Source: Opitutaceae bacterium
GTDB lineage: Bacteria > Verrucomicrobiota > Verrucomicrobiia > Opitutales > Opitutaceae
DNA: 64,000 nucleotides
Assembly: GCA_015075305.1 (NCBI GenBank)
Contig: JABTUS010000006.1
Coordinates: 248,001 to 312,000 of the forward strand
Direction of reading: 5' to 3'
The translations under genes were made by a program, and so were the position numbers. Below, piece by piece: positions 11,744-61,046 of this stretch (the stretch's first letter is position 1; each line of letters begins with the position of its first letter). The notes under the pieces were generated by a model that was given only the letters and a program-made list of their open reading frames with translations, ran no database searches and was not told where the DNA came from.

Positions 11744-11761
11744 GCCCGGCAGAATGACGGG

Positions 11762-14700: not shown

Positions 14701-14869
14701 GCGGGCTGGCGCCCGGATAGAAGGTGAAGACCTGGATGGTGGGATAATCCACCTCCGGAAGCGCCGCGATCGGCAGCAGCCGGTAGGCCATGACGCCCGA
14801 AAGCAGCAGGGCCACCATCAGCAGCGTGGTGGCTATGGGTCGCAGAATAAACGTGCGCGACGGATTCAT
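11762..14869 (-). CDS. RND efflux pump subunit (MdtB-like)
   Basis: The 1035 residues start with [26 protein letters not shown] features are the TM4 aspartates in [21 protein letters not shown] and the TM10 segment [18 protein letters not shown]. The ATG overlaps the stop of the adaptor gene by 4 bp (14866-14869), so the two are probably translationally coupled. It is paralogous to the pump that follows, and the paired arrangement is what suggests an MdtBC heteromeric pump rather than two independent homotrimers. The C-terminal tail after the last helix is short, hydrophilic and rich in Arg and Ala. Confidence 0.9.
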
Positions 14870-16086
14870 GAACTCCTTGCGCGCGGGGTGGGAGGAGCGG
14901 GCGGGCTGGGAGTTCCATTGACAATCTGAACGGTGCGGCCTTCGCGCAATCGGTCCAGGCCTTCAAGGACGACTTGATCGCCGGCTGCGACTCCCTGCGT
15001 GACCGCCTGCCACGTGCCGTCCGATGGGCCGAGCACGACATCGTGGATCATCGACTTGTTTTTCGCGTCGACGACATAAACGTAGGTTCCCCGTGAGCCG
15101 AATTGCACGGCATCGGCGGGGATGATGACTGCGTCCTCAATCGTGTTCACGCGCAGGCGGATATTGACGAACTGATTGGGAAACAGAATTTCGTCGGCAT
15201 TGGGGAACTCTGCCTTGAGGCGCACGGTGCCCGTCGCGATGTTGATCTGATTGTCCACCGTTTTCAGGACGCCCGTTTCGAGAAGGTTCTGTTCATTGCG
15301 ATCCCATGCCTCGGTCCGGAGCACCTTGCCGGCCCGCAGGGGATCGAGAACCTTTTGGAGATCGACCTCTGGAATGGTGAACACGACGGAGATGGGCTGG
15401 GTCTGTGTAATCACCACGAGACCGTTTGCATCTCCGGGTCGGATGAGGTTTCCGGGGTCAACTTGGCGCAAACCAAGACGTCCATCGATGGGAGCCTCGA
15501 TTCGGGTGTAGCCGAGCTGGAGTCTTGCATCCTCGACCTGGGCCTCATTGGCGGCGAGAGCACCGCTTCGCTCAGCCACGCGAGCTTGGGCGGCGTCGAG
15601 CTCCTGCGCTGTCACGAGGGTCTTTTCGAAGAGCTGCTTCAGCCGCTCGAGATCGCGCTCGGCATTGTGGAGCTGCGCCAGGTTTTGCTTCTGATTGCCC
15701 TCGGCTTGCGCCAGCTTGATCTGGTAGGGATCAGGATCGATCTCCGCGAGGAGGTCGCCCTTCCTGATCTTTTGACCTTCAGTGAAGGCGACCCGGATGA
15801 GCTGGCCCTCGACACGACTGCGCACGGTCACGGTGTTGAGTGGAGTGACGGTTCCAATCGCCTTCAGATAAACGGCAAGGGAGTCCCTTTTTGCGGCAAC
15901 GGTCTTGACCGGCACGGCCTCCGCTCCACCGAAACCTCCGGATCCATGGCGGAAGGAAAAGCCCCGGGATTGAGGCGGCTGGCTTGCTGACTTGAAACCG
16001 AAATACCAGACCCCCCCTGCGAAAACGGCACCGATTGCGGCGAATATCAGCCAACGTCGCTTGGATGAGGGCGTGGGAGAAGACAT
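14866..16086 (-). CDS. RND efflux periplasmic adaptor subunit (MdtA-like)
   Basis: ATG 16086 is chosen because it gives a start [20 protein letters not shown] with a single membrane anchor or uncleaved signal at about residues 12-30; the frame is open further upstream but with unlikely sequence. The 406 residues carry the lipoyl halves ([20 protein letters not shown] and [19 protein letters not shown]), a helical hairpin and barrel domains. Unlike the first adaptor in the window it has no lipobox. It heads an operon with two pumps and overlaps the first by 4 bp. It ends in a proline-rich tail, which is common in MdtA-type adaptors. Confidence 0.9.
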
Positions 16087-36768: not shown

Positions 36769-39700
36769 TCAGAAGTCGAACGTGGTCGTCAGGATGAAGA
36801 GCCGCGGATCGATGATGCGGAAGGAGGTCGGCTGACCGAGCGGATTGACAGCCACGGGCTGGAGCCGCCCGCTTTCGAAGGCGTTGCGCACATTGAGCTG
36901 GGTGCGGATGCGAATGCGGTCGCTGGCGAGCTTGAATCGGTAGCCAACGCTGAAATCGAAGTAGTAGCGTGCCTTGTCGAAAATGGGCTTTTCGGGATCG
37001 AGTTCGAGGATGACACCATTCTCAGGTGCGCGTCCCAGGTATCCGATCGCGGACTTGTCCTCCCAGCGAACGGCGCCGCCAATGCTCCAGTTCTTGAGGC
37101 GTCCCTCGGTGAAATCATAGTTGGTAAGGGCGTTCCAGCGCCACTCGCGCACCTGGGCTCGGGACTTGCCATTGTTGGCGACCTCGAAGAGGTAGGGGGC
37201 GCGGATTGATCCCAGCCATTGAGTCATGGCGTAGTTGTTGTTGGCCGTCCACCAGAGGTTGCCTTGGTCGTCCTTGGCGGACATCCAGACCGGCAGGCGG
37301 CGCTCGAAATATCCCTCGAGATCACCGCCGATGTTCGAGTCGACCGACTTCTGCTGCGCCGCGTTGAACTTTATGCGCCAGTTGGGGAGGGGATTGTAGA
37401 CGGCCTCGATTTCCCAACCCTTGGATTCGCGGTCGCCGGCGACGCCGACGGCACCGGTGAGGTCGGTCTGGCGGAGAAAAGCGGGGTCGAGTTTGACCAG
37501 CTCGGTGGCGGCCTTGTCGTAGATCTGATCTTCGGAGGCTGTGATGCCCTGCTGCTGGTAGCGGGCGCGGATGACGCCGATGGCCCAGCCGAGAAACGAC
37601 TGCGGTGTCTGCTGGCGTCCACCCTCAAGAACGTGCGTGCGAGAACCCACCGTGCCGAGCTGACTCAGCCGTGCCTTGATCTCCCTGACCTGGTAGCGGT
37701 TGACGCGGAGCGCGAGTTTTCCGTCGAGCAGGGAGACACCGATGCCAAAGTCCTGGCCCTTGCTGGTGGGATTCGGCATGATGATGCCATTGATGTCATA
37801 GCGGATTGCCTCCGGGGAGAAGCTGTCGGCCCAGTTGTAATAGAAGCGGAGCCAGGGAGTCGCCTTGATGACGCCGCCGAGGGTGTAGGTGTTCCCCTTC
37901 TGAATGGAGTCGGCGGTGGGAAAGTTTCGGAGGGCTGGGGAATCAGAGGAGTAGAGACCCGTGGCCGGATCGATCGTCCATGCGTCCGACGTGTTGCTGC
38001 CCTGCTCGTCGCGACGATAACCTGCTGTCGCCACAAGCCGGTCGTCGATGAAGTTGCCCTGGTAGGTGACGTTGGCGGAGTCAATGTAGCGCGTGCGCGT
38101 CCGTGTATTGCTGACCGGAACCTCGCCGAGGCGCGCCTGCTCGACAACCCATTGGTTGGTCTGCGCGTTGAACCAGGTGAACGGATACGTGCCTGCGAGA
38201 TTCGCGATTGATGTCGGGGCATAGTCTATGTTCTGCCCCTGCTTGTCGCCGAGGTAGTATTGAAAGTAAGTGGTGGTGGACGCGGAACGATTCGACGGCG
38301 TGATCCAGGCGTGGTCTGACGCGATGAAGTCATTGTAGCGGTAGTTGACGCTCTCCTGGCTGCGACGCTCGGCGTGGAGGTTGAGGCGCTGACGGCCGAG
38401 CCAGTCGAAGCGGCTGTCGCTCTGTTCAGGCGTGAGCTGGTAGACAAGGTCGCCGCTGATGGTTTCCTCGTACTCGGGCGTGCGCAGGACGAGAGGACTG
38501 TTGGCGCCGACGTAGGGACGCCGGAAATTCGGGTTGGGGGAGCCGTCGAGCAGGCGCTCATTGACGTCGACGAAGATGATGGTGTCGTTCTCGCCGATCA
38601 TGTCGCGCTCGTAGCGCTCGAAGTCCTGGCGGAAGTAGCCGGCTCGGGCGGCGAGCAGGTGTCTGGGAGTCTCGATGAGGAACTGCTCCAGCTCAGCCAT
38701 GTAAGTCGTGGCCTTGTCCTGGACGTAGTTGGGGGCGACATAGTTGATGCTCGACCAGTCGTAGAGGGACTTGTCGGAGACGCCTGGTTCGAAGAAGAGC
38801 GGGAAGTTTGTCTTGTCGCGCCGGAGATCCGTGCCGCTTTGGAGCATGCGCAGATCGGTGGTCCAGCGACGCGGGGTCGGCGCGCCGGCCAGGTTTCCGG
38901 TGCGGTTGACGCCCCAGTAGGTGATGGAGCCGTCGGGTTCCACGAACAAAGGAGTGCGCTGGTAGAAACCGTTGCCCTGCGCCCAGAGCCCCAGGGGCAG
39001 CTTGCTGTCATTGGAGGCGGTGAACGGGCCGGAGGTCGTGCCGTTGGAGAGGGTGACCATGCGTGTCACCGGGTTCCATGTCGGCTCGCCCGCGGCGCGC
39101 CAGTCGGTGACCGTCTGGCGCGGGGTGAGCGCATTGGGGCGCTGCGCGGTGTTGCGGTAGGATTCCACCGATGCCTTGAGCGTCGTGCGGCGGAATGGCT
39201 GGTAGAAGAGAGAGAACTGGCCGCGGCGGATTTCCTCGCGGGACGGCTCGAGCTCGAAGCCCTTGTCCTCCCAGACGCCCGCGACACGGATGGCGAGTTT
39301 CTTGCTGAACAGCGGCCGATTGAAGTCGAACGATCCGCGGTATCCGCCCCGGTCGTCAACCCGCGCGGTCACGGTGGTGATTTCGCGGGAGAGCCGGGCG
39401 TAGGCGGGCACGAGGTTGACGGCGCCCGCGCCGGAGCCGAGACCGAAGATGTTGGAGTTGGGACCGCGGGAAATCTCGATGGCCTCGATGTTGTAGAGAT
39501 CGAGGGGGATGTTGGGGTTGCTGGCGAAGTTCCCGATGGCGACGTTGGCGGAGCCGAGGCCGCGGATGCGGTTGGCGGTCTGCGGGTTGGCCTGGACGTC
39601 GTCATTGACGCCGCCGTCGCGGTTGGGCGTCATGGCGGTGAACTGACCGGTGCCCTCCGTGCCGACTTCGTAGAGGAAGACGTCGTTGATGTCGTTGGCC

Positions 39701-39972
39701 GCGGTGTCCTCGAGCTGGAGCTTGGTCACGACGGAGATCGACGAGGCGATGTCCTCGAGGCTGGTGTTGAGGCGGGTGCCCGAGAGGGCGTTGGTCGCCA
39801 GGTAACCTCGTCCGTCGGAGGTGACGGTGAAGGGGGAAAGCCGCACGGCCTCGTCGTTTTCGGGCCTGGCGGTTGCGGTCTGCTGTGCGGAGAGCGAGCC
39901 CGTGAAGAGCATCGCCGCGGGCAGGCAGGAGGTGAGAATGCGGAGGGATGGGAAGAACAACGGCTTGGTCAT
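36769..39972 (-). CDS. TonB-dependent receptor, Opitutaceae type
   Basis: The 1067 residues have a signal peptide (about 1-30, ending near SLSAQQ), then VRLSPFTVTSDGRGYLATN, the pre-plug signature common in Opitutaceae receptors. The plug domain (about 55-190) contains SGTRLNTSLEDIASSISVVT and RGPNSNIFGLGSGAGAVNL, followed by a 22-strand barrel ending in Phe (TTTFDF), as usual for outer-membrane proteins. It would import oligosaccharides across the outer membrane with TonB energy. No SusD-like partner is encoded nearby. First gene of the seven-gene degradation operon and divergent from a sodium symporter; a LacI-type palindrome lies 90 bp upstream. Confidence 0.93.
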   Translation of the reverse strand: MTKPLFFPSLRILTSCLPAAMLFTGSLSAQQTATARPENDEAVRLSPFTVTSDGRGYLATNALSGTRLNTSLEDIASSISVVTKLQLEDTAANDINDVFLYEVGTEGTGQFTAMTPNRDGGVNDDVQANPQTANRIRGLGSANVAIGNFASNPNIPLDLYNIEAIEISRGPNSNIFGLGSGAGAVNLVPAYARLSREITTVTARVDDRGGYRGSFDFNRPLFSKKLAIRVAGVWEDKGFELEPSREEIRRGQFSLFYQPFRRTTLKASVESYRNTAQRPNALTPRQTVTDWRAAGEPTWNPVTRMVTLSNGTTSGPFTASNDSKLPLGLWAQGNGFYQRTPLFVEPDGSITYWGVNRTGNLAGAPTPRRWTTDLRMLQSGTDLRRDKTNFPLFFEPGVSDKSLYDWSSINYVAPNYVQDKATTYMAELEQFLIETPRHLLAARAGYFRQDFERYERDMIGENDTIIFVDVNERLLDGSPNPNFRRPYVGANSPLVLRTPEYEETISGDLVYQLTPEQSDSRFDWLGRQRLNLHAERRSQESVNYRYNDFIASDHAWITPSNRSASTTTYFQYYLGDKQGQNIDYAPTSIANLAGTYPFTWFNAQTNQWVVEQARLGEVPVSNTRTRTRYIDSANVTYQGNFIDDRLVATAGYRRDEQGSNTSDAWTIDPATGLYSSDSPALRNFPTADSIQKGNTYTLGGVIKATPWLRFYYNWADSFSPEAIRYDINGIIMPNPTSKGQDFGIGVSLLDGKLALRVNRYQVREIKARLSQLGTVGSRTHVLEGGRQQTPQSFLGWAIGVIRARYQQQGITASEDQIYDKAATELVKLDPAFLRQTDLTGAVGVAGDRESKGWEIEAVYNPLPNWRIKFNAAQQKSVDSNIGGDLEGYFERRLPVWMSAKDDQGNLWWTANNNYAMTQWLGSIRAPYLFEVANNGKSRAQVREWRWNALTNYDFTEGRLKNWSIGGAVRWEDKSAIGYLGRAPENGVILELDPEKPIFDKARYYFDFSVGYRFKLASDRIRIRTQLNVRNAFESGRLQPVAVNPLGQPTSFRIIDPRLFILTTTFDF

Positions 39973-40179: not shown

Positions 40180-41772
40180 ATGTTTCGATTCATGACGAAG
40201 CGTTTGGTTCGCCTGTCCTGCCTGCTTGGCGCATCATTTTCGGGCGTTGCCGCCTTCGCCAGCGGGCCAGACGGTGCCTATGCCGGTCGCAAAGGCGGAT
40301 TTGCCTGGTTGGACTATGCGACGCTGGTGGCCTACCTCCTCGGCATGGTCGCCATTGGCTGGTATTGCGCGAGGCGCAACAAGAACACCGACGACTACTT
40401 CAAGGCGGCCGGACGGATACCCTGGTGGGCGGCTGGACTCAGCATCTATGCGACGATGCTCAGTTCACTCACCTTCATGGCCATACCCGCAAAGGCCTAT
40501 GCGACCGACTGGACCTTTTTCTGGGCCAACGTTCCCATCCTTCTGCTTGCGCCGCTCATCATCCACTTGTATCTGCCGTTCTTCCGACGGTTGAACATAA
40601 CCTCGGCCTACGAATATCTGGAGCTTCGATTCAATCTCCCTGCGCGCCTCTACGGCAGCGCGGCATTCGTCCTCTTTCAGATCGGACGCCAGGCCATCGT
40701 CCTCCTGCTGCCCTCTCTCGCGCTGGCCAGGGTGAGCGACCTCGATGTCACGACATCCATACTCATCATGGGCATCCTGTGTGTCGTTTACACAGTCATG
40801 GGAGGCATGGAGGCGGTGGTTTGGACTGATGTCGCCCAGACTATCGTGCTGCTGGGGGCGGCCCTGCTCAGCCTTGGACTGATCCTGTGGGGGCCGACGG
40901 GGACGGGCTTGGGCCAGTTCGTGGAAGTCGCCACGGATGCGGGGAAGTTCCACATGTTCAACTGGACGACTGATCCGAGCACATCAGCCAACGCCTTCTG
41001 GGTGATTCTCCTCGGCAATATCTTTATCAATCTCGTGCCGTATACGAGCGATCAGGCGGTTGTGCAGCGCTACATGACCACAAGGGATCAGTCCCAGTCG
41101 GCGCGGGCGATCTGGTTGAACGCTTGGATAACCATTCCCTCCACCGTGCTGTTCTTCAGCATCGGAACCGCGCTTTATGTCTTTTACCACCAGCACCCGG
41201 ACATGCTGGACCAGAAACAAGCCACCGACGTCATATTCCCGGCGTTCATCGTGCAAAATCTTCCTATCGGCGTTGCGGGCCTCGTCATCGCAGGCATCTT
41301 TGCGGCCGCGCAGTCCACCGTTTCAGGAAGCCTGAACAGCGTTACAACCGCGATTATGACCGACTTCTGCCGGAGGTTTGGCTTTCTCCGTGATGAAACG
41401 CGCAGCCTTCGCGCGGCACGCCTTATAACAGCGACCCTCGGCGTGTTCGCCACATTGGCGGCGCTGGCGCTGGCTCAATTTGGATTCAAGTCACTCTGGG
41501 ATGCCTACAACAGCCTTGTTGGTTTGATCGGCAGCGGTCTCGCTGGATTGTTCATGCTGGGCATCTTTACCCGGCGCGCCAACGGAGTTGGGGCGATGAT
41601 CGGCGCGCTCGCCAGCGCCTTGGTCCTCTTTGTCGTGCAGAAGTTCACAGACCTTCATTTCTTTCTCTATGCCGGCATCGGCATCGTCACCTGCGCAGTG
41701 GTGGGATGGATCGCAAGCCTCGCGTTTCACTCTTCATCCCCATCTCCCAAGGGTCTGACCATTCATGGTTAG
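40180..41772 (+). CDS. Sodium:solute symporter (SSS family), possibly for sialic acid or a related sugar acid
   Basis: The 530 residues have an extra hydrophobic leader (LSCLLGASFSGVAAFASG) before a 13-helix SSS core. Family signatures include RNKNTDDYFKAAGRIPWWAAGLS, GGMEAVVWTDVAQ and TSDQAVVQRYMTTRD, the last a well-conserved SSS block. It imports a sugar, sugar acid or similar metabolite by sodium symport through the inner membrane. An N-acetylneuraminate-lyase-like gene follows at 154 bp, as in sialic acid uptake loci with SiaT-type symporters, so a nine-carbon or six-carbon keto-acid substrate is a fair guess, not proven. ATG 40192 is an alternative start. Confidence 0.88.
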   Translation: MFRFMTKRLVRLSCLLGASFSGVAAFASGPDGAYAGRKGGFAWLDYATLVAYLLGMVAIGWYCARRNKNTDDYFKAAGRIPWWAAGLSIYATMLSSLTFMAIPAKAYATDWTFFWANVPILLLAPLIIHLYLPFFRRLNITSAYEYLELRFNLPARLYGSAAFVLFQIGRQAIVLLLPSLALARVSDLDVTTSILIMGILCVVYTVMGGMEAVVWTDVAQTIVLLGAALLSLGLILWGPTGTGLGQFVEVATDAGKFHMFNWTTDPSTSANAFWVILLGNIFINLVPYTSDQAVVQRYMTTRDQSQSARAIWLNAWITIPSTVLFFSIGTALYVFYHQHPDMLDQKQATDVIFPAFIVQNLPIGVAGLVIAGIFAAAQSTVSGSLNSVTTAIMTDFCRRFGFLRDETRSLRAARLITATLGVFATLAALALAQFGFKSLWDAYNSLVGLIGSGLAGLFMLGIFTRRANGVGAMIGALASALVLFVVQKFTDLHFFLYAGIGIVTCAVVGWIASLAFHSSSPSPKGLTIHG

Positions 41773-41820: not shown

Positions 41821-42841
41821 CCGGTCCGCCCGCGAATGGTTCCGCAATTGCACCAGTGTGCGCCGCTTGCGGGGGCGGCTCGTGCGCCCACGCTGGGGCG
41901 CTGCACTGTCGTCATCGCGTTTCAAATGAACACCCTGCCTCCCGGTCTAATCGCCGCGCCCTTCACCGCGTTCCATCCGGACACCTCGCTGAATCTGGAG
42001 GCGGTTCCCCGCCTTGCGGCACTGCTGGCGCGCAACAGGGTTGTGGGCGCGTTTGTTTGCGGCACTACGGGTGAGGGACTTTCCATGACGGTTTCGGAGC
42101 GCCGCCGGGTCGCCGAGGCATGGAAGGCCGCGCTGCCCGCTGAGTTGAAGCTCATCGTTCACGTCGGCTGCCTGAACCTCGGCGAAACCTGCGAACTGGC
42201 CCGGCATGCCCAGATGATTGGAGCCGACGCCATTGGCACGATGGCCCCCAGTTTTTTCAAGCCGGCCGCGGTCGAGGACCTGGTCCAATGGACGGCGCAT
42301 GTTGCGGCTGCCGCGCCGCGGCTGCCGTTCTACTACTATCACATTCCGTCCATGACCGGGGTGCGGATTGCGGCCGCCGATTATCTTGCCCAGGCAAGGC
42401 TGCGCATTCCCAATCTGGCCGGCATCAAGTTCACGGATGAGGATCTTGCGGACTATTCGGCGGCACGGGCCATGGCGGGTGAAAAACACCAGATTCTCTT
42501 CGGACGCGACGAGCTTCTTCTGTCGGGCCTCGATTGCGGCGCCACCGGGGCGGTCGGCAGCACGTACAACTATTCGGCGCCGCTCTACCTGCGCATCATG
42601 CAGGCGCTGAAGAACGGCGATCGTGCGGAAGCCGAGCGAGGACAGGCCGATGCAAGGGAGTTCATCGACGTCATGATCCGGCACGGCGGACTTCCGGCTG
42701 GCAAGGCGATCATGAAGATGGTGGGGGTCGATTGCGGCCCTGTCCGCCTCCCGCTCCGCTCATTGACCGCTTCCGCGGAACAGGCGCTGCGTGCCGACCT
42801 TGAGTCGAAGGGATTCTTTGCCCGCGCCAGCGCCGCCTGAC
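41821..42841 (+). repeat. Direct repeat copy 1 (about 1.02 kb, holding the first lyase gene)
   Basis: Copy 1 matches 47611-48631 at a constant offset of 5790 bp. It includes about 105 bp of upstream non-coding sequence and the whole lyase gene, and ends right after its stop codon. The first 870 bp differ from copy 2 at only two bases (41861, 42513), but the last 150 bp differ at twelve. Confidence 0.97.
41926..42840 (+). CDS. N-acetylneuraminate-lyase-like aldolase (DHDPS/NAL superfamily), copy 1
   Basis: Class I aldolase of the DapA/NanA superfamily, 304 residues, start MNTLPPGLIAAPFTAF. Visible are GTTGE at residues 46-50 (carboxylate binding), FYYYHIP with catalytic Tyr138, and Schiff-base Lys168 in AGIKFTDEDL, then GATGAVGSTYNY. 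The YYYHIP and GATGAVGSTYNY blocks are characteristic of the eukaryotic-type N-acetylneuraminate lyases rather than of DapA. The likely reaction is splitting of N-acetylneuraminate to pyruvate and N-acetylmannosamine, although another 2-keto-3-deoxy sugar acid is possible in this uronan-type locus. Probably co-transcribed with the symporter upstream. Almost identical to the copy at 47.7 kb. Confidence 0.85.
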   Translation: MNTLPPGLIAAPFTAFHPDTSLNLEAVPRLAALLARNRVVGAFVCGTTGEGLSMTVSERRRVAEAWKAALPAELKLIVHVGCLNLGETCELARHAQMIGADAIGTMAPSFFKPAAVEDLVQWTAHVAAAAPRLPFYYYHIPSMTGVRIAAADYLAQARLRIPNLAGIKFTDEDLADYSAARAMAGEKHQILFGRDELLLSGLDCGATGAVGSTYNYSAPLYLRIMQALKNGDRAEAERGQADAREFIDVMIRHGGLPAGKAIMKMVGVDCGPVRLPLRSLTASAEQALRADLESKGFFARASAA

Positions 42842-43224
42842 TTGTTGGAGTTGATCTGATCGCGAAGAGTGCTGATTTCCCGGATGAAGGGAATTCTGGA
42901 GTGAATGCGGTGCGAGGGACGAAAGCGGTTGTTGGCGAAATCGGAAGATAGGCGGTCGTTTTCGAGACAGAGTGCGTCCTTTTGGCGAATGACGGTGTGA
43001 TGTGAGTATGCTTACACCTTCCACCGTTGTGGGTTGAGGGAAAACGATGGACTGAGATCGAGCTGCTTCAGCGAGTTTTTGCCGATCGGTGAGCAGCCGC
43101 GCAACAACCCTCCGGTTGTGCGCCAGCGGGCCCCAGGCCATGGTGAGATGGCAATGGTCGAAGCGACATAAGAAACAGGTGGTTGCGAGGCTGTTGATCG
43201 ACGAGAGTGGCAAACTCCTTTTCG

Positions 43225-43720
43225 ATGCAGTTGTATCCGGAGAATGAGAGTGACCCAAAGACTTGTGAGCCGACGGAGGAAAAGCTGGAGAGGCGGACTG
43301 CAGCGAAGGATATCATGATGGTTGGCGATCGCGACATTATCAAAAGAATCGGAAATCAAGAACCGGGCTGCGGTATCGCAACTGGCGTTGCTGGATGGTT
43401 GCCACGTCTTGGAGACAGACGTGCCTGCCGCGGCCTCGGACATCCACACGGTGCATGTACGCTATATGAGCCTGACCGACGTCGGGGAGAACTTTCGAAC
43501 GATGAAGACGGGGCTGGTGGAGCTACGATCGATTTTCCTGCGCAAGGCCGAGCGCTCCGAAAACTGCGCGGTGGTGACGATGCAGGCCTTGGAATTGGTG
43601 CATGGACCCAACCGGCAGGTTGCTCTTCTGGGACTCACGGTGTTGCCGCCGCTTCCCGCATCGAGATTGTTTCCAAAAAAATCGGCAAAATGGCCTCCCA
43701 CCCAATCCTGCCTGGGCCGC
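43225..43720 (+). pseudogene. Decayed transposase remnant (IS1634/IS4-like DDE family)
   Basis: Two fragments in different frames are visible. The first (about 43225-43335) reads MQLYPENESDPKTCEPTEEK and then KDIMMVGDRDIIKR, matching the block around the second Asp (VGDRG) of this transposase group, with Gly replaced by Asp. The second (about 43322-43720) reads LLDGCHVLETDVPAAASD, VRYMSLTDVGENFRTMKTG and RSIFLRKAERS, the region around the catalytic Glu. Material between them is missing and the frame shifts. No terminal inverted repeats were seen. The gap 42841-43224 before it holds no supportable gene, only possible eroded transposase sequence around 43130-43220. Confidence 0.68.
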
Positions 43721-43785
43721 GGTTCTCCCCTAAAGTGAACCCAGCCACCCGTGCGAAATGTCACTTCAATCAAACGGGGGATCCG

Positions 43786-44823
43786 TCAGAAATTCAGCCC
43801 GAGATTCACGGTGATGCGCTGATCCCGGCGAAAGGCTGGATTGGCAATGCTTGAATCGTGGATCTGCTCGCGGCTAACCCCGAGGGTGATGTTGTCCCGG
43901 AGTTTGTTGTTCAGCTTCAGATTGTATTGGTAGAAATAGCGGCCATATTCATTCCCTGCCGGAATACCCTGCGGGTTGGGAAATGCGCCGAATGGAGTGA
44001 GGCGGGACTGTATGCGCCCGGTCATGTCGAATGACATCCGGGTTGTCATCTGCCAGTTGGATTCCACGAAAAATTGTCCGAGCAGCCCGACTCCTTCGGG
44101 CTGCGGAATCGCCATTTGTCGTTCCTGCCCCACCAGACCCAATCCGATTAACGCATTCAATCGCGGCCGCTGGAGCAGCCGGTAGCCGCCGTCAACCGAC
44201 TGTTCGTACTGTGCGTCGATCCGGCGGATCCCGTCCTTCAAATAGCTGGTGACCTCTTGGAAAAAGTATCTGGCTGACATGTCCCGCCGCCAGCGAAAGC
44301 TTGCTTCGTCGCGTTTCTCCACCAGGATGGTTCCGATCCTGGAATCGACCCACTGGATGTTCGCCTCGAGGGAGTTTCTGCCGATTGTTCGCTGTGCATT
44401 GGCGGCCAGACTTATGCGCCGCGTAACGATGTTCACCGATTGGCTGAAATATCCGGCTTCGATCCGAAATTTCCAAGGGGGAGGACTGGCCTTTGGCGCT
44501 GCCGGGGGCGCCGGCGGAGGAGCCGGGGGTGCCGGCGGCGTCGGAGGCGGCACCGCCAACGGTGGGGGGATGGGCTCGCTTGTGCGGACAATGTTTTCTG
44601 CGGGAACCTGGATCTCGCCAAGTGATTCGGTTCGTACAGTCACATGGTTTCCGGAGCTACGCATGGTTCCAACGAGATGACTTCCGTCCTTGAGCCATAC
44701 CTCGGCTGCAGTCGCGCGTGCGTTGAAGTCCGCCGCCAATGTCAGAATGCCCGCCACGCCCGCATTGCGAGCGAACCTCCACGCTTGTGAAATGACACAG
44801 GCAGGTTTCCCGGAGTTTGACAT
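43786..44823 (-). CDS. DUF481-type outer-membrane protein with proline-rich linker
   Basis: The 345 residues have a signal-like N-terminus (to about residue 38, ATAAE), then a short domain VWLKDGSHLVGTMRSSGNHV with IQVPAENIVRT. A 30-residue run dominated by Pro and Ala follows, then a beta-strand-rich C-terminal barrel (FRIEAGYFSQSVNIVTRRIS to RITVNLGLNF) ending in Phe, as outer-membrane proteins do. DUF481 proteins are small outer-membrane barrels of unknown function (YdiY in E. coli). Whether it takes part in glycan use is unclear. It follows the DUF4838 gene on the same strand with a 70-bp gap. Confidence 0.78.
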   Translation of the reverse strand: MSNSGKPACVISQAWRFARNAGVAGILTLAADFNARATAAEVWLKDGSHLVGTMRSSGNHVTVRTESLGEIQVPAENIVRTSEPIPPPLAVPPPTPPAPPAPPPAPPAAPKASPPPWKFRIEAGYFSQSVNIVTRRISLAANAQRTIGRNSLEANIQWVDSRIGTILVEKRDEASFRWRRDMSARYFFQEVTSYLKDGIRRIDAQYEQSVDGGYRLLQRPRLNALIGLGLVGQERQMAIPQPEGVGLLGQFFVESNWQMTTRMSFDMTGRIQSRLTPFGAFPNPQGIPAGNEYGRYFYQYNLKLNNKLRDNITLGVSREQIHDSSIANPAFRRDQRITVNLGLNF

Positions 44824-44893
44824 TATTTTTCGAGGGGATTGCCTCGGAAGCTGTGCAGCTTCTCAGGAGGTTCGCATGGAGGATGAAGGAGGT

Positions 44894-47461
44894 TCAATGG
44901 CCCGGGTTTTCATCAGCTGATGATGCATTGGCCGGAGGTGCTGCCAGAGGACGCAAATCGTAGCTGAAGGAAAACGTTTTCCCCGGCTGCAAGGGAGGGA
45001 CGGACACCCAATAATCAAGACCCAGAAATTCGCGGCCTGGATTCCATGATGCGGCGAACCGGGTGAATGTTCCTGGATGGAAGTCATGCGTGATTCCGAA
45101 CCGGGTGGTGCGGTCAAAGAATGCCAGGGAACGGACTGCATCACTGCCCGGCACGTGAAACTGCATGACATTCATCCTGCCAAAGTCCCAGTTTGCATTC
45201 ACCTGACGCCAGGCCGGATCACGAAGGTAGACTGCGGTGAGGAACGGGCTGTCGGATGAGGAAACGGCATATTCCGCTGAGCGCTCGCGTACCGTCCAGG
45301 CGGGAAGGGAGTGAGCCGCCTTCAGCTCCATTTGGATCTGGATCGCGCCACTATCCTCAAGGGATATTGTGCGCTTCCAGGAGTTCCCGTCGGGGAGGGA
45401 CAGAGTCATGACAGCCTTTCGGGGGTCGCTGGTCCAGCTTCGCGTGCCGGCGGCCAGCGAATTTACCCCGACGCGTGCGGACTCCGGCCACAAATTCCAC
45501 TGAGCCCAGCGCATCATGCGTGTGGATGGCGGGGCGATGATCTGGCGCCCTGTCGGCTTGTGGTTCAGCAGCATGATGCGTCCGTCCGCCATGGTGGACA
45601 CCACGAGCCTCCAGACGGCATTCTCGAGTGTGATGACCGGCCAGCCCTTTTCGAGAGACTCCAACTCCAGAAAGTGAGCAGCGGCATCGCGACCTTCGCC
45701 GACGAGAGTCATTCCATGCTTTCGCGCGAGTTCAATGTAGCGCTGCAGGGAGCCCGGCGGCAGCGATGACACATCCAGGCGATACGAACCGTTTGTGCAG
45801 GTGCGGGGTGCGGTTGCCAGGAGAGAGCCCAGCACCGGGATCATCGCCTTTTCCACGCGCCCGCGCAGCGTGTCGTCGTCCGCGAGATGCTCCGCCCCAG
45901 CCACACGGTCATGGAAACCGCGCGCGACCGCGGCGTCCAGACCCAGCTCGATGGGGACGTCGGCCATGCACCGAAGGTAGACTCCGCGCGCGTGTGCGTT
46001 CGCGTAGAGATAACGCAGCCCGTCTAGGATGGGTGCGGCCGCGGGTCCGTAGTGAAGCCGACAGAATTCCTCCACCAACGGCCAGCTGTCGGGCACCGGC
46101 CGCCACAGGCAGCGGGCGATCACATAATTGTGGAGATCGCTGTACGCGGCGGACATGCCGTCACCCGCGGCCTGCATGAATACGCCATGGACGCCACGAT
46201 CGCGGAACAGGCTGAGGTTGGGGCCGGTTGCCTCGAGATTCGTGAAAGGCAGGTCGTAGTTGCGGAACGCCACGTTGTAGTTCCAGAGCCAGACATGGCG
46301 GCAAATTTCCTGCCATTGGGTGAAATCCTGCATGAAAACGCGGTTCTGAAAGCAGGCGGAATCCGCCAGGGGGTGCAGGTTGCACGCCTCGATGCTGCAA
46401 AGCTGGATTTCCACATTGGGCTCGAGGTTGAGCGTCATGGGAGGCTTGCGGGTGTGCCAGTAGATCAGCGTGCCCACACGCACTCCCGGATGGGATTTGG
46501 CGACAGCGGCGGCCACAGCGTTGACCAGCACCAGATGAGGGGCTCCAAGGGTTCCCTCGCGTGCAATCAAGGCTGAGCAATCCCGGCATTCGCAGCAGGC
46601 ATCGTTGTCGGGTGGGCTCACGCTGATGTTCGTCCATGCGGGATGCGCATCCAACTCACGCAGGACAGCCTCCGTGACGAGCCGGATGACATCACGATTC
46701 AATGAGCATACCTGAGGACCGCCGCCCTGCCCTTCGAGCCGGCGCGTGCCGCCGATCAGGGCGAAGTATTCAGGATGATCCCGGCCATAGGTGGCGACCG
46801 GCAAATATTGCTGCAGGGAATGAGAGATCAGCTGCTGCGAGGTTTTGCCGCCTAGGCGCGGATCGTCGGTTATTGTGTTCACACGCAGCCGTGTGGCGAA
46901 GGCCGGGGCGGCGTAGTTCTCGCGATAATAGGAGGAGCGAAACGAGAAGGGTGGATCGTAGCTGAAATCCTCCACCGGCAGAACCGCGTTGCGTGCCTCT
47001 GCAGGAACATAGGTGTGGTCCGCCGTCAGAAACCGCACGCCCGCGTAGCGCTCGAAAAATTCATAAACTCCATAGAGTGAACCACGCGGCCGGCCACCCG
47101 TGACAAAAATTGCTCCCGGATGGATGCGCAGACGCAACCCCTCCTCGCCAGCGGTGCTGATATCGGGGCTGTCTTCGTTGGGCGCTACGGCGCCCTGCCC
47201 AATATGGATGCTGCCTGTCGTCCCGGGAGCCTCGCTTATTGGCAGGCTTGCATCCGTTGCCAGTTTGAACAACCGGACGAACTCCTCGGCGGCGTATCGT
47301 TCGCTTGGCAGGGCATTCCGTCCAACGACAACGGTCCACGTCCCGAGATCCCCCAGATGTCGCGGGGAGGCCGCCTGGCACGGGGCGATTGCGACGGCGA
47401 CGCCCACCGCCAGAAGGATCCAGGCGGCTGAAGACGGGAAGGGAGGCTGGCGGACGATCAT
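44894..47461 (-). CDS. Secreted DUF4838 protein, glycoside-hydrolase-like
   Basis: The 855 residues have a signal peptide (SAAWILLAVGVAVAIAPCQA). The N-terminal domain (about 35-135) resembles the non-catalytic N-domain of alpha-glucuronidases and GH20-like enzymes (YAAEEFVRLFKLATDASLPI, LYGVYEFFERYAGVRFL). A DUF4838 barrel (about 200-480) includes VSPPDNDACCECRDCSAL and an aromatic-rich sequence VWLWNYNVAFRNYDLPF, and a C-terminal beta-sandwich of about 300 residues follows. DUF4838 proteins are widespread in polysaccharide loci of Bacteroidota and Verrucomicrobiota and are presumed glycosidases; activity is unproven. It lies between the two copies of the aldolase gene on the opposite strand. 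Confidence 0.85.
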   Translation of the reverse strand: MIVRQPPFPSSAAWILLAVGVAVAIAPCQAASPRHLGDLGTWTVVVGRNALPSERYAAEEFVRLFKLATDASLPISEAPGTTGSIHIGQGAVAPNEDSPDISTAGEEGLRLRIHPGAIFVTGGRPRGSLYGVYEFFERYAGVRFLTADHTYVPAEARNAVLPVEDFSYDPPFSFRSSYYRENYAAPAFATRLRVNTITDDPRLGGKTSQQLISHSLQQYLPVATYGRDHPEYFALIGGTRRLEGQGGGPQVCSLNRDVIRLVTEAVLRELDAHPAWTNISVSPPDNDACCECRDCSALIAREGTLGAPHLVLVNAVAAAVAKSHPGVRVGTLIYWHTRKPPMTLNLEPNVEIQLCSIEACNLHPLADSACFQNRVFMQDFTQWQEICRHVWLWNYNVAFRNYDLPFTNLEATGPNLSLFRDRGVHGVFMQAAGDGMSAAYSDLHNYVIARCLWRPVPDSWPLVEEFCRLHYGPAAAPILDGLRYLYANAHARGVYLRCMADVPIELGLDAAVARGFHDRVAGAEHLADDDTLRGRVEKAMIPVLGSLLATAPRTCTNGSYRLDVSSLPPGSLQRYIELARKHGMTLVGEGRDAAAHFLELESLEKGWPVITLENAVWRLVVSTMADGRIMLLNHKPTGRQIIAPPSTRMMRWAQWNLWPESARVGVNSLAAGTRSWTSDPRKAVMTLSLPDGNSWKRTISLEDSGAIQIQMELKAAHSLPAWTVRERSAEYAVSSSDSPFLTAVYLRDPAWRQVNANWDFGRMNVMQFHVPGSDAVRSLAFFDRTTRFGITHDFHPGTFTRFAASWNPGREFLGLDYWVSVPPLQPGKTFSFSYDLRPLAAPPANASSADENPGH

Positions 47462-47610
47462 GAATGGACGAGGTTGGGTGTTGAATGCCCTGACTGGCAG
47501 GGCGCTCGATGGAGCCCGCCTCGCTGTGCAGGGGGAGGCACGATTGACATTTTTTGATTGTCTGGCTGCGAGGCAAACTCCGAAAGCTGGTCTGGAAAAG
47601 GTACCTCACG

Positions 47611-48631
47611 CCGGTCCGCCCGCGAATGGTTCCGCAATTGCACCAGTGTGTGCCGCTTGCGGGGGCGGCTCGTGCGCCCACGCTGGGGCGCTGCACTGTC
47701 GTCATCGCGTTTCAAATGAACACCCTGCCTCCCGGTCTAATCGCCGCGCCCTTCACCGCGTTCCATCCGGACACCTCGCTGAATCTGGAGGCGGTTCCCC
47801 GCCTTGCGGCACTGCTGGCGCGCAACAGGGTTGTGGGCGCGTTTGTTTGCGGCACTACGGGTGAGGGACTTTCCATGACGGTTTCGGAGCGCCGCCGGGT
47901 CGCCGAGGCATGGAAGGCCGCGCTGCCCGCTGAGTTGAAGCTCATCGTTCACGTCGGCTGCCTGAACCTCGGCGAAACCTGCGAACTGGCCCGGCATGCC
48001 CAGATGATTGGAGCCGACGCCATTGGCACGATGGCCCCCAGTTTTTTCAAGCCGGCCGCGGTCGAGGACCTGGTCCAATGGACGGCGCATGTTGCGGCTG
48101 CCGCGCCGCGGCTGCCGTTCTACTACTATCACATTCCGTCCATGACCGGGGTGCGGATTGCGGCCGCCGATTATCTTGCCCAGGCAAGGCTGCGCATTCC
48201 CAATCTGGCCGGCATCAAGTTCACGGATGAGGATCTTGCGGACTATTCGGCGGCACGGGCCATGGCGGGTGAAAAACACCAGATTCTCTTCGGACGCGAC
48301 GAACTTCTTCTGTCGGGCCTCGATTGCGGCGCCACCGGGGCGGTCGGCAGCACGTACAACTATTCGGCGCCGCTCTACCTGCGCATCATGCAGGCGCTGA
48401 AGAACGGCGATCGTGCGGAAGCCGAGCGAGGACAGGCCGATGCAAGGGAGTTCATCGACGTCATGATCCGGCACGGCGGACTTCCGGCGGGAAAGGCCAT
48501 CATGAAGATGATCGGGGTTGATTGCGGCCCGGTCCGCCTGCCGCTCCGCTCACTGACCGCTTCCGCGGAACAGGCGCTGCGTGCCGACCTTGAGTCGAAG
48601 CGATTCTTCGCCCACGCCAGCGCCGCCTGAC
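47611..48631 (+). repeat. Direct repeat copy 2 (about 1.02 kb, holding the second lyase gene)
   Basis: Copy 2 of the repeat at 41821-42841, same orientation. The left edge is sharp: the flanking bases 41820 and 47610 differ. The right edge coincides with the stop codon. The spacer between copies carries the decayed transposase, the DUF481 gene and the DUF4838 gene, which recombination between the copies could delete. Confidence 0.97.
47716..48630 (+). CDS. N-acetylneuraminate-lyase-like aldolase (DHDPS/NAL superfamily), copy 2
   Basis: The 304 residues differ from copy 1 at three positions only: Val to Ile in MKMIGVD, and Gly to Arg and Arg to His in the C-terminal SKRFFAHASAA. All catalytic features are kept (GTTGE, Tyr138, Lys168). 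It shares with copy 1 the 105 bp before the ATG, so part of the leader is duplicated too. Upstream, on the other strand, is the DUF4838 gene; the GntR/LacI-type regulator follows 207 bp downstream. Both copies are intact, so dosage or separate regulation may be the benefit. Confidence 0.85.
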   Translation: MNTLPPGLIAAPFTAFHPDTSLNLEAVPRLAALLARNRVVGAFVCGTTGEGLSMTVSERRRVAEAWKAALPAELKLIVHVGCLNLGETCELARHAQMIGADAIGTMAPSFFKPAAVEDLVQWTAHVAAAAPRLPFYYYHIPSMTGVRIAAADYLAQARLRIPNLAGIKFTDEDLADYSAARAMAGEKHQILFGRDELLLSGLDCGATGAVGSTYNYSAPLYLRIMQALKNGDRAEAERGQADAREFIDVMIRHGGLPAGKAIMKMIGVDCGPVRLPLRSLTASAEQALRADLESKRFFAHASAA

Positions 48632-48837
48632 GCACAGAGGCCGGGGCTGGCGTGCAATCGTGCCCTTGGGCAGCCAGCAACGCAAACCCGATTCAGCCCC
48701 AGCCGCCTCCTTCCCGTTTGATGGCGGTCAGGCTGCTGGGGCCTCCCGTTGCAGCGTTTGAACTGGACCTGCGCGTGACCGCTGGCGATAAGACGTGCAG
48801 CCCGGCGCGGGCCCCGCTTGTCAACATACTCGGTCTC

Positions 48838-49935
48838 ATGCCGCATCTGCCGAAACGTCAATCACTCGTCCATCAGACCGCGAAAATCCTGCAGGATGAA
48901 ATCGCCCAGGGCGGATGGAAGAACTGGCTGCCAGGGGAAAGGATGCTTTCAGCAAAATACCAGGTCAGCCGCAACACCGTGCGGGCGGCGCTGGCCCAGC
49001 TGCAGCAGGAGCGCCTGATCCGTGCAATCCATGGGTCCGGTCATCGCATACTTGTCCCGCCCAACCGACGTTCGCTGCGTGAGGATCAGGAGGCTGTCGG
49101 GTTGCTCATGCCGGAAGCGCCGGAGCGCCTACGCCCGAGCCAGACGCTGTGGATCGACGAACTGCGGGCCCTGCTGGGAGAACACGGCTGTGTCCTTCGA
49201 TTGTTTCACGGTCAGCAGTATCTTACCAGGGATCCCAGCATGGCCTTGGAAAAGCTGGTCACACAACACTCCCACGGCTGCTGGATTCTTCTTCGCTCAA
49301 GCGCCGCAACGCAGTCCTGGTTCAGCCGCCATCATTCACGGTGCCTGGTTGTTGGAACGGTGCATGCGGGACTGCCGCTGGCTTACCGCGACATCGACCA
49401 TCGGGCGCTCTGCCGGCATGCCGCGGGGGTGCTGCTTGGCCTTGGTCACCAGCGGATTGCCTTCATGGCCGCCAAGCCCGCACTGGCGGGTGACCTTGAG
49501 AGCGAGGCCGGGCTTATGGAGGCGGTGCGCTCCTCGCACCGCGCTGCCGACGCCATCACCGGATGGCACGACGGCAGTGTGGCGGGTATCGGCCACGCAT
49601 TGCGTCTCCTGCAGGCGCGCCGCGCTGCGCCGACGGCGTTGATCATGGCCGGCACCTATCACTACCTCGCGGCCTGGAGCCTCCTGATGCAGTCCGGCAT
49701 CCGGGTGCCGAAGGATGTCTCCATCATTTCCCGGGACGATGATCAATTCCTGTCCTACCTCAAGCCGTCGCCTGCGCGCTATGTCTCCTCCGCAAGAAAC
49801 CTTGCGAAGGCGCTGCTGCGCCCCGTGATGGAAATCCTGGCAGACGGACAGGCATCCCTGCGCGAGCTCAAGCTGATGCCTGAGTTTTTCCAGGGTGAGA
49901 CGGTGGCACCGTGCGCGGACGAGAGTCGGGACTGA
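48838..49935 (+). CDS. GntR-type helix-turn-helix fused to LacI-type sugar-binding domain
   Basis: ATG 48838 starts directly at the DNA-binding domain (MPHLPKRQSLVHQTAKILQD); the frame is open 186 bp further up without domain support. The N-terminal 75 residues are a GntR winged helix (GERMLSAKYQVSRNTVRAAL, then HGSGHRIL). The remaining 290 form a periplasmic-binding-like domain as in LacI/GalR (GLLMPEAPERLRPSQTLWID, VLLGLGHQRIAFMAAKPALA, VPKDVSIISRDDD). This hybrid resembles AraR of Bacillus in layout. Total 365 residues. It lies before the second TonB receptor and after aldolase copy 2, either of which it could regulate. Confidence 0.85.
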   Translation: MPHLPKRQSLVHQTAKILQDEIAQGGWKNWLPGERMLSAKYQVSRNTVRAALAQLQQERLIRAIHGSGHRILVPPNRRSLREDQEAVGLLMPEAPERLRPSQTLWIDELRALLGEHGCVLRLFHGQQYLTRDPSMALEKLVTQHSHGCWILLRSSAATQSWFSRHHSRCLVVGTVHAGLPLAYRDIDHRALCRHAAGVLLGLGHQRIAFMAAKPALAGDLESEAGLMEAVRSSHRAADAITGWHDGSVAGIGHALRLLQARRAAPTALIMAGTYHYLAAWSLLMQSGIRVPKDVSIISRDDDQFLSYLKPSPARYVSSARNLAKALLRPVMEILADGQASLRELKLMPEFFQGETVAPCADESRD

Positions 49936-53045: not shown

Positions 53046-54644
53046 ATGCCATTCACCAGACCCATATCCGGATTTGGCGTCATGCACGCCCTGCTGATGC
53101 TCTGCCTTGCGTTTGGCCGCATGGGTGCGGCGACCCGCATGCCGCTGCTCATGCCGGACGATTTCGAGTCGCTGAAACTGGCGGCCTGGCGAATTGAAGA
53201 GGGCGTGCCCGATGCGCACAATCCGCTGCTGGAGCCGGCGATGCCCTGGGATGCCGGGGGCATCATGGGACACGGCACGGTGCTTCACGATCCCATTGAT
53301 GGGCTTTGGAAGGCGTGGCAGGTCTCGACGCCGGAGGAAACGGAGCTTGATGGACTGAAGTCACTGCATGAGGCGCGTCGCCGTCTGACCTATCTCGAAA
53401 GCAGCGACGGGGTGAAGTGGCATCGGCCCATGCTGTCACTGGTGTCGTGGCCGGGTCATCCAAAGACAAACATACTGCTCGACTTCGATTCCGGCGGCAC
53501 GGCCCAGTATGCTTCGGTGATGATTGATGCCTCGAACAAGGCGGAGCCGTATGAGATGTTCATTTTCCGCTCGCCGAGTAGAAATGGGACGATCGCCTCG
53601 CAGATGGGAGCGCAGGGCAGCGTGGGTTCGCTGCCGGGTCCGGCTGAAAAATACGGCTTGTACCGCTATCGATCGAAGGATGGCAAGGACTGGAAACTCA
53701 AGGAGGGGCCCTTGGAGATCAAGGGAGGCACGGATGTGTGCTACATCTATCGGCAGCCTGCCGGCGGCTATGTCGCCTATTTCAAGGTGTACCCTCCGAA
53801 GGAGCCCGGAGACCGCATCATTCCCTACGATGTGAATGCGAAGCAGCTCCAGCGGCGGGTCGGCCGGGCAACCAGTCCGGACGGAACACACTGGAGCGAT
53901 ACGACGGTTGTTCTTGGACGCGATCTTCGCGATCCGGATTTTGCGCAGTTTCTGGAGATTTGTCCGCTGCCTGTGGCAGGTGGTTATGTGGCGCTGGTCA
54001 ACTACTACGATGCGGCGCAGCAGACGATGTGTCTGCAGTTTGCGGCGTCGCGTGACGGCCTGCAATGGTGGCGGCCCGACACGCGTCCCGCGCTTGCGAA
54101 TGCTCCCATCGGGGATTTTGGAGGCGGCTTGATCTGGCAGATGCGCCAGCCCATCGTTGATGGCACGAGGCTGTACGCCTACTATTCCGGATCAGAGGGC
54201 GTTCATTCGGCGATCGTCGACTCTCGATTTCAGCCGCAGATTGAGATTCCTGGCGGATCGCTGATAGGTTTCAGAAAGGGCACCCTGCCGTATTACGGCG
54301 CCTTGTGCCGTGCTTCGTGGGAGGCGGATCGCCTTTGGGCTCTGGTCTCGGTGGTTGGCGGGCCGATGCCGGTCGAAGCCGTGACCCGGCCGAGGGACAT
54401 CGGCGGGCACACGATACAGGTGAATGTCCGTGGGAAGAAAGGCGGACAGTTGAAGGCCGAGCTGCTTGATTCCGCCGGCGTTGGCTTGCAGGGATTCACA
54501 CTCGACGACTGCAAGCCCGTGACCGGCGACCATCATCGAATCACGCTTGAGTGGAGGGGTGGGAGCCAGGCGCCGGCTTCCGCAGCCCGGATTCGATTTG
54601 TTTTTAATCGCTCGTTTTTGTACGGATTTGAAGCCGTACAGTGA
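53046..54644 (+). CDS. Secreted beta-propeller protein, glycoside-hydrolase-like
   Basis: The 532 residues have a signal peptide (a start at ATG 53082, MHALLMLCLAFGRMGAA, is also possible). Repeated propeller blades carry the pattern aromatic-SxDGxxW: YLESSDGVKWHRP, YRSKDGKDWKLKEG, RATSPDGTHWSDT, FAASRDGLQWWRP. A C-terminal beta-sandwich of about 130 residues (GGHTIQVNVRGKKGGQLKAE) follows. The fold is that of GH32/GH43/GH117/GH130-like enzymes, but the catalytic acids cannot be assigned by eye. A related protein, with the same C-terminal module type, is encoded at 59.6 kb; the two bracket an SDR, a Gfo/Idh enzyme and a cytochrome fusion. Confidence 0.72.
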   Translation: MPFTRPISGFGVMHALLMLCLAFGRMGAATRMPLLMPDDFESLKLAAWRIEEGVPDAHNPLLEPAMPWDAGGIMGHGTVLHDPIDGLWKAWQVSTPEETELDGLKSLHEARRRLTYLESSDGVKWHRPMLSLVSWPGHPKTNILLDFDSGGTAQYASVMIDASNKAEPYEMFIFRSPSRNGTIASQMGAQGSVGSLPGPAEKYGLYRYRSKDGKDWKLKEGPLEIKGGTDVCYIYRQPAGGYVAYFKVYPPKEPGDRIIPYDVNAKQLQRRVGRATSPDGTHWSDTTVVLGRDLRDPDFAQFLEICPLPVAGGYVALVNYYDAAQQTMCLQFAASRDGLQWWRPDTRPALANAPIGDFGGGLIWQMRQPIVDGTRLYAYYSGSEGVHSAIVDSRFQPQIEIPGGSLIGFRKGTLPYYGALCRASWEADRLWALVSVVGGPMPVEAVTRPRDIGGHTIQVNVRGKKGGQLKAELLDSAGVGLQGFTLDDCKPVTGDHHRITLEWRGGSQAPASAARIRFVFNRSFLYGFEAVQ

Positions 54645-54692: not shown

Positions 54693-54794
54693 TTCCGTTG
54701 ATGCTCGTTGATGCCATGCGGATGATCGGTGATTCATATCCGCAAGAAATTGAAAATCACCGACTGCAGGGTTCGATCGAGGTGGTGTGTTTGC

Positions 54795-59450: not shown

Positions 59451-59600
59451 CCAACCCTTTCGATCGAGTGGTATTTCAAAAGCACCTCTGGTTTCTGTTG
59501 GTGACGGCCGCGAATCGAGGCAGGTTTGAGATTGAACAGGATGCGCTTGAAATCCCCCGGTTGCATCCGTGTTCCAGCCAATCCATTTGACGTATTCCCC

Positions 59601-61046
59601 ATGAAACGCATTTCCACCCTTCCTGTCCTCCTCGGTTTCCTGCTGCCGATTGTCTCGCTTGCGGACATGCCCGTGGCGCGAAAGACGCTCCTGCTGGACT
59701 CCACTTTGATCAAGAGCAGTGAGAACATCCGGATGACCGTGGGGCGGCTCACGAAGTATTCCGGCAATCCGCTGTTTGGTGAGGATCGGCCTTGGGAGCC
59801 GCGTTTCGACAACATGTATCCCAATGTGATCCGGGATGAGAGCGACGGCCTGTTCAAGTGCTGGTACAATCCATTCCTGGTTGAAGTTGAGGACTGGCTT
59901 GGATCGAGCAATGAGCGCAAGCGGTGGCTGTATCCGCGGCAGTCGGGATTGTGCTACGCCACATCCAGGGACGGGATCCATTGGGAAAAGCCGGCCTTCG
60001 ACATCCTCCCGTTCTGGGGTCAGCCGAGCAACATCCTGATGCGGGATGTTCATGGCGTGGGGGTCTTCCGCGACGCCCGCGATCCGGATCCGGCGCGCCG
60101 CTACAAGGCGTTTTTCGTGAATCAGGAGGCTGGCCGCCGCACAACGGTGGCCGTGGCGTTTTCGGCGGACGGCATTCATTGGGGTCCTCAGACCGTGCTC
60201 AACAATGTGAAGCTCATGGCCGACACCCACAACAATGCGCTGTGGGCGCCGACGCTCAACCGCTACGTGGCGTTCACGCGCGACTGGGATCCACGCGAAT
60301 GGAAACGGAACAGCAAGGGCGAGATCCCGGCGGTGCGCCTTGTTTCCCGCATTGAGAGCGAGGACTTCGTGCACTGGAGCGATCCGCAGACCGTGCTGCG
60401 TGGGGTGACGGACAATCTGCAGGTTTACGCGATGCCGGTGTTCCACTACGCGGGAATTTATCTCGGACTGCCCGTCGTGCTCGACGCCAAGGATGACCGG
60501 ACCCACACGGAACTGGCCTGGAGCAAGGACACGGTCAACTGGCATCGGGTCGATGCGGGAACCCCGTTCATTCCCAATAGTGAAAAGAAGGGTGACTACG
60601 ACTGGGGCTGCACCTATCCGGCTGCGGTTCCGGTCATCATGAAGGACGAGATTCGAATCTATTATTCCGGCAGTGACGGCCTGCATTTTGGACAGCGGAA
60701 AGCCTGGTTCGAGTTTGCGACGCTGCGTCCCGATGGGTTCGCAGCAGCTGCTCCCGTGGATGAGTCGCGGGAGGGGCTTGTCCAGACGACCCCCGTGTCG
60801 ATTCGGTCGGACGAGCCATTGATGCTCACGGCGGATGTGGAGGCGGGAGGCAGTGTGCAGGTGGCGATTTTGGATGCCGAAGGCCGCGAGGTGGCGCGCT
60901 CCGTTCCGATGACGGGGTCATTCACATCGCGCGCGGTCAGATGGGAGACGGCTTCGCGCGTTGTCGATGGAGAGCACGCATTGAAATTCAGGCTGGTTCG
61001 AGCCAGGCTGTACTCCTACGAGTTCGGAACGAAGCGCGTGCAATAG
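59601..61046 (+). CDS. Secreted beta-propeller protein, glycoside-hydrolase-like
   Basis: ATG 59601 begins a signal peptide (MKRISTLPVLLGFLLPIVSL); 481 residues. Blades show CYATSRDGIHWEKP, AVAFSADGIHWGPQ, ESEDFVHWSDPQ and AWSKDTVNWHRVD, the same S-x-D-G-x-x-W type as in the 53 kb gene. Near the end, IRIYYSGSDGLHFG and a C-terminal beta-sandwich (DEPLMLTADVEAGGSVQVAI) match the partner's module order. The N-terminal segment has a clear acidic cluster (NMYPNVIRDESDGLFKCWYN). Probably a GH43/GH117-clan-like enzyme or sugar-binding propeller. It follows the Gfo/Idh gene after 150 bp. Confidence 0.72.
   Translation: MKRISTLPVLLGFLLPIVSLADMPVARKTLLLDSTLIKSSENIRMTVGRLTKYSGNPLFGEDRPWEPRFDNMYPNVIRDESDGLFKCWYNPFLVEVEDWLGSSNERKRWLYPRQSGLCYATSRDGIHWEKPAFDILPFWGQPSNILMRDVHGVGVFRDARDPDPARRYKAFFVNQEAGRRTTVAVAFSADGIHWGPQTVLNNVKLMADTHNNALWAPTLNRYVAFTRDWDPREWKRNSKGEIPAVRLVSRIESEDFVHWSDPQTVLRGVTDNLQVYAMPVFHYAGIYLGLPVVLDAKDDRTHTELAWSKDTVNWHRVDAGTPFIPNSEKKGDYDWGCTYPAAVPVIMKDEIRIYYSGSDGLHFGQRKAWFEFATLRPDGFAAAAPVDESREGLVQTTPVSIRSDEPLMLTADVEAGGSVQVAILDAEGREVARSVPMTGSFTSRAVRWETASRVVDGEHALKFRLVRARLYSYEFGTKRVQ

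Follow-up and report, generated by a model that had tools for sequence, protein, structure and literature searches.

A divergence step within a duplicated aldolase gene pair of an Opitutaceae bacterium, read as a recombination mosaic

Two copies of an aldolase gene, directly oriented and 5.8 kb apart in an Opitutaceae genome (4.87 Mb, 17 contigs), are almost identical from their common leader through most of the coding sequence and diverge abruptly near their 3' ends, and there is good support for reading the pair as a mosaic made by recombination and not as a uniform duplicate. Gene conversion between older, already diverged copies, covering the leader and the first 85% of the gene, is the most probable explanation (probability about 0.6). 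Both copies lie in the window, that is, the whole stretch of 64,000 nucleotides that was analysed (G000:C6:248001-312000), and positions are counted from its first letter.

Layout and identity of the two copies

Positions 41821-42840 and 47611-48630, both on the plus strand, align without gaps or indels at an offset of exactly 5790 bp, with 1006 of the 1020 aligned positions equal; an earlier note on this DNA had described two 1.02-kb copies 5790 bp apart, and this description holds exactly. Both genes are intact (copy 1 at 41926-42840; copy 2 at 47716-48630, as given by the alignment and NCBIfam models), each encoding 304 aa counted from the likely start. The open reading frame of copy 1 is listed from 41836, and the assumed start at 41926 is residue 31 of this longer frame; it is supported by the five closest same-genus homologues (58-61% identical), which align from residue 26-30 of the long frame. 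The length of the leader, about 105 bp, rests on this assumed start, and the non-coding leader of that length that the note had counted into the near-identical part agrees with the data if the start is indeed at 41926. The leader of copy 1 (41821-41925) differs at one position (41861) from that of copy 2, which the alignment places at 47611-47715. Similarity between the copies has a sharp onset at 41821 and ends one base past the TGA, much as the note had it stopping at the stop codon, and comparison of the flanks (blastn, 7-base words) gave a best match of only E 0.036.

A genome search with the leader recovered, besides both copies, only matches at E 0.24-0.83, and the leader was therefore rejected as a multi-copy element. 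Across 114 loci, outside those holding both copies, leader homology was limited to 14-19-base matches (E 0.57). A promoter and terminator scan gave no signal above that of shuffled sequences.

Copy 1 matches PF00701 (DHDPS) with 168 bits (E 2.5e-49) against a gathering score of 22.1. For both copies the best NCBIfam models are those of N-acetylneuraminate lyase, all scoring below cut-off (copy 1 reached 160.6 of 281 and 138.4 of 382 bits with the equivalogs), and the assignment as NanA was dropped because the equivalog cut-off was not reached. The predicted products are aldolases of the DHDPS/N-acetylneuraminate lyase superfamily. The assembly holds no third near-identical copy; apart from the two genes themselves, a search at E<=1e-20 recovered just a 42% identical paralogue on contig C7, and a third copy as conversion donor was rejected for this reason.

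Divergence step and breakpoint

The copies differ at 41861, at 42513 and then at 12 sites within 42699-42824, giving 2 mismatches in the first 878 bp versus 12 in the last 142 bp. The step that the note had placed at 2 differences in 870 bp and 12 in 150 bp is confirmed, with this slightly different exact split. The divergent tails, 42699-42840 in copy 1 and, by alignment with it, 48489-48630 in copy 2, are about 8.5% divergent at the DNA level. The copies share stretches of unbroken identity over 651 and 185 bp, and the second of these, at 42514-42698 on the plus strand, is the hard interval holding the breakpoint.

A model with one breakpoint is better than a uniform rate by 18.6 log units, and none of 20,000 shuffles matched the observed likelihood ratio, the largest shuffle value being 11.8. 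These results speak strongly against a uniform recent duplication, as had been claimed from the step. The 2-log-unit support interval is 42674-42699, and the breakpoint near 42690 proposed in the note falls inside it. At third positions, 1 of 257 differs in the 5' part versus 8 of 48 in the tail (Fisher P 1.8e-6, with the breakpoint picked from the same data). Estimates by NG86 follow the same division: codons 1-257 give a dS of 0.005 with a dN of 0, codons 258-304 a dS of 0.276 with a dN of 0.034. Twelve codons are changed, one of them, silent, in the 5' part and 11 in the tail; eight of the latter are silent and the rest are V/I, G/R and R/H; the note had described the tail differences as mostly silent or conservative. 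The step, its position and its strength are demonstrated by these comparisons.

Rate variation and character states among homologues

Rates along the gene were compared in an alignment set of 36 homologues, consisting of 35 loci of other genomes and the C7 paralogue of the same genome. For each of the 666 pairs that these homologues form among themselves and with copy 1, DNA divergence in the tail was divided by that in the 5' part; this ratio has a median of 1.13, a 5-95% range of 0.92-1.36 and a maximum of 3.3, compared with about 65.6 for copy 1 and copy 2. The homologue ratios lie far below the latter value, so that a fast C-terminus does not account for the step and was rejected as its cause; the step is not a general property of the aldolase gene. 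Two DNA matches per genome were found in G033, G104 and G252 (at most 2 candidates scored per genome); among these, G033 alone has both genes in the alignment, and its pair lies outside the closest four by protein identity.

The ratio of 3.3 belongs to a pair that is 93.7% identical in the 5' part and that corresponds, by protein identity, to loci L066 and L068 from two genomes of another genus. These two genomes, G101 and G114, are 87.7% identical across 3177 bp around the homologous aldolase gene. Identity between L066 and L068 is 87-99% per 75 bp upstream and over most of the gene and drops to 63-77% in a stretch that takes in the 3' end and some 190 bp of following DNA (1951-2250 of L066, around the stop). 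Further downstream it is uneven, varying between 69 and 96% per 75 bp for another ~750 bp. This drop is a separate, interspecies case.

At the 12 tail sites, 25 of the 36 homologues match copy 2 more often and 10 match copy 1, with one tie. The commoner state is that of copy 2 at several tail sites and that of copy 1 at others: the copy 1 base is present in just 1 of 36 homologues at two silent sites, while at the G/R site 35 of 36 carry the copy 1 base and none the copy 2 base. Both copy lineages therefore seem, judging from these states, to have changed in the tail. The excess of silent changes, together with minority states on both copies, is what would be expected of two lineages diverged under purifying selection. 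No DNA identity above 69% over a long match was found in the other 251 family genomes (at most 2 candidates scored in each); only short matches of no more than 171 bp reach 71-96% in relatives. With long matches at this level of identity, the tail states do not tell which copy was the donor of the 5' part.

Genes between and around the copies

Three features lie between the copies. The first, at 43355-43591 on the plus strand, is a putative IS1634-family transposase fragment of 79 residues, matching NF033559 over profile positions 345-420 of 483 (E 7.3e-10, 38.5 bits versus a cut-off of 100); Pfam gave no transposase match here, and a genome search with the IS1634 family returned seven matches, this fragment not being among them. 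Elsewhere in the genome, an IS1634 match above the curated cut-off and free of internal stops lies at C6:145603-147141, and one above the cut-off with a single stop at C9:120121-120792, besides weaker pieces. The other two features are full genes on the minus strand, encoding a DUF481 protein (43786-44823) and a DUF4838 protein (44894-47461), the latter perhaps a glycoside hydrolase to judge from a sub-cut-off match to a GH67 N-terminal domain. DUF481 matches occur in 65 other family genomes, none more than 35% identical (at most 8 candidates scored per genome). For the DUF4838 protein, a search of the 251 other family genomes at E<=1e-80 gave none (at most 3 candidates scored per genome). At E<=1e-40, 78 of 387 phylum genomes were matched, its own included; the best other match is 42% identical, and two family members reach 30-33%. 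In codon usage, among 27 genes scored, the DUF481 gene is lowest (-0.162) and the DUF4838 gene ordinary (-0.066), which gives no consistent sign of foreign origin for the two. Also downstream of copy 1, a stretch of 167 bp (42920-43086) is 81% identical to G000:C1:451779-451944 and is probably a dispersed repeat or a shared remnant.

Both full genes between the copies thus appear to be without close family counterparts, with the aldolase copies as the borders of the segment, a point that the earlier note had missed. As far as gene content goes, this points to an insertion bordered by both copies.

To the left of copy 1 lies a predicted sodium:solute symporter gene (40180-41772, plus strand; PF00474 E 3.2e-38, TIGR00813 above cut-off). 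To the right of copy 2, a GntR regulator with a periplasmic-binding-protein-like domain (48652-49935, plus strand; PF00392, PF13377; its real start probably being later) comes first, then a TonB receptor and other genes. The same-genus genomes G005 and G007 each have a cluster, in partly different order, with counterparts that are 57-81% identical. Counterparts of the GntR, TonB receptor, SDR and GFO genes and of the genes at 53046 and 59526 occur in both, that of the symporter in G007 only and that of the gene at 54729 in G005 only; each of the two genomes has one close aldolase (60-61%) and one at 43%. The presence of symporter and right-hand genes in these two genomes, where the genes between the copies are not found at such identity, provides context for the preferred reading. 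A second TonB receptor, left of the symporter (36769-39972), has no close counterpart in the loci compared.

Arrangements in relatives differ: the aldolase directly follows the symporter in G011 and G254 and adjoins the GntR gene in G005, G034 and G036, and G128 holds symporter, GntR and a 42% identical aldolase within 5 kb in a different order. The row symporter-aldolase-GntR was found in none of the relatives' loci examined.

Two genes of this region, at 53046-54644 and 59526-61046, encode proteins of ~510-530 aa that are mutually ~24% identical in cross matches; the first gave no Pfam hit and the second no NCBIfam hit, and both are present in the two same-genus clusters. Far to the left in the window, a 137-bp direct repeat with 70% identity (11608-11744 and 14734-14870) marks the 5' ends of two neighbouring large open reading frames; these similar-sized frames (8627-11743 and 11762-14869) are perhaps tandem paralogues.

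Origin of the mosaic

The history that we favour would begin with two aldolase copies of the superfamily, either old paralogues or a resident gene and a copy from a related bacterium, that had first diverged by about 8.5% at the DNA level (dS ~0.28). Homologous recombination would then have overwritten the leader and the initial ~770 coding bases of one copy with those of its partner, in a conversion tract reaching the left homology limit at 41821 and having its other end within 42514-42698, and two substitutions would have arisen after conversion. We infer one single event, with RecA-type gene conversion as its mechanism. Several observations count against this reading: relatives offer no long match above 69% DNA identity from which ancestral states and direction could be read, the tail is just 142 bp long, and the right homology limit lies one base past the stop codon, a point that an old duplication would need to hit by chance.

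The same step would be produced by a recent duplication of the whole 1.02-kb unit in which one tail was later replaced, through homologous recombination, by a divergent allele of a related strain or species, and the tail dS of 0.28 suits a related-species allele. We regard this sequence of events as possible but improbable. A tract of imported DNA would be expected to continue past the stop codon, and an outside donor is needed, with none above 69% DNA identity in the family genomes at up to 2 candidates scored in each. The G101/G114 pair, with its drop to 63-77% identity around the aldolase stop codon, offers a loose parallel, weakened by the similar unevenness (69-96%) of its further downstream DNA. 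Of the earlier proposal, the part that invoked recombination stands on the step, the shuffles and the dS values, whereas its specific form, an older duplicate followed by gene conversion, is the likeliest history but is not separated from an imported tail.

Gene conversion of older copies could have had a further component, in which a foreign segment carrying the IS1634 fragment, the DUF481 and the DUF4838 genes would have entered the aldolase gene by homology and left a copy of it at either border. With the aldolase gene as its anchor, such an integration could, on gene content only, account for the duplication. If duplication and conversion were in this way a single event, it would explain both that the copies border genes lacking close counterparts and that homology ends at the gene edges. 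The left-hand TonB receptor is likewise without close counterpart, so that variable DNA is not confined between the copies, which argues against integration. In its fullest form, one double-strand-break repair event would have done everything: a foreign segment with its own related aldolase would have crossed over inside the resident aldolase, between symporter and GntR genes, and the conversion tract of the crossover would have made the copies alike from the leader through the 5' part. The aldolase would in this way have been the homology anchor for possible polysaccharide-use cargo (DUF4838, DUF481). We hold this version to be unlikely. A plain Campbell-type single crossover without conversion fails alone, as it predicts that divergence should be the same to either side of the breakpoint.

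An artefact, with reads of both copies or of two strains merged over the 5' part, is a distinctly less probable source of the mosaic. Identical runs as long as those found are hard for short reads, and a search of the 17 contigs for a 16S gene was negative, which hints weakly at a short-read bin (the same search was positive in 9 and negative in 5 of 14 control genomes). Yet the upstream flanks of the two copies differ from each other, as do their downstream flanks and their tails, the window contains no N, and the differences at 41861 and 42513 are retained, indicating that the 5' part was not simply collapsed.

Very improbable, finally, is an origin without recombination, by mutation or selection acting differently on the C-terminal region of one copy, with targeted diversification of the diversity-generating retroelement type as a special case: targets of such elements do diverge at their 3' end, but by adenine-specific, mostly amino-acid-changing differences from a template copy, whereas the copies show mixed base changes without an adenine-only pattern, 8 silent codons among the 11 changed in the tail (on which grounds the retroelement was rejected), minority states on both copies, and no similar tail acceleration among the 36 homologues.

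Comparison with known systems

Conversion between duplicated genes is on record for the tuf genes of Salmonella (PMC5485169) and has been measured directly for the rRNA operons of E. coli (PMC8022953). A conversion tract that stops where homology stops agrees with the tuf report (PMC5485169); conversion there was selected and observed, whereas the aldolase event is read from one assembly, in a directly oriented pair 5.8 kb apart. The mtrA-1 and mtrA-2 genes of methanogens are likewise paralogues homogenised in one part and distinct in another (PMC4632066). In that case the distinct part is a transmembrane domain acquired via domain shuffling and fusion, and conversion acted over a long history (PMC4632066); the aldolase tails, unlike it, are homologous and their differences mostly silent.

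The possible integration resembles homology-facilitated illegitimate recombination, in which new genes are gained beside a homologous anchor and the old gene is kept (PMC3240628, PMC5361080). It differs in that the aldolase integration is read from gene content only and no empty site was found in a close relative. Literature searches on mechanisms and on the family brought up no report of the aldolase gene pair. The mosaic is best explained as a clean case of a well-known kind, namely ordinary DNA copying between gene copies.

Significance

The aldolase pair preserves, in compact form, a natural trace of duplicate genes recombining in an Opitutaceae-type genome, and shows that the 5' identity of such pairs is unfit for dating the duplication. 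The possible origin of the duplication is more interesting than the mosaic itself: if the integration reading is true, it would show how a catabolic gene cluster can acquire cargo, with a gene of the cluster itself supplying the homology.
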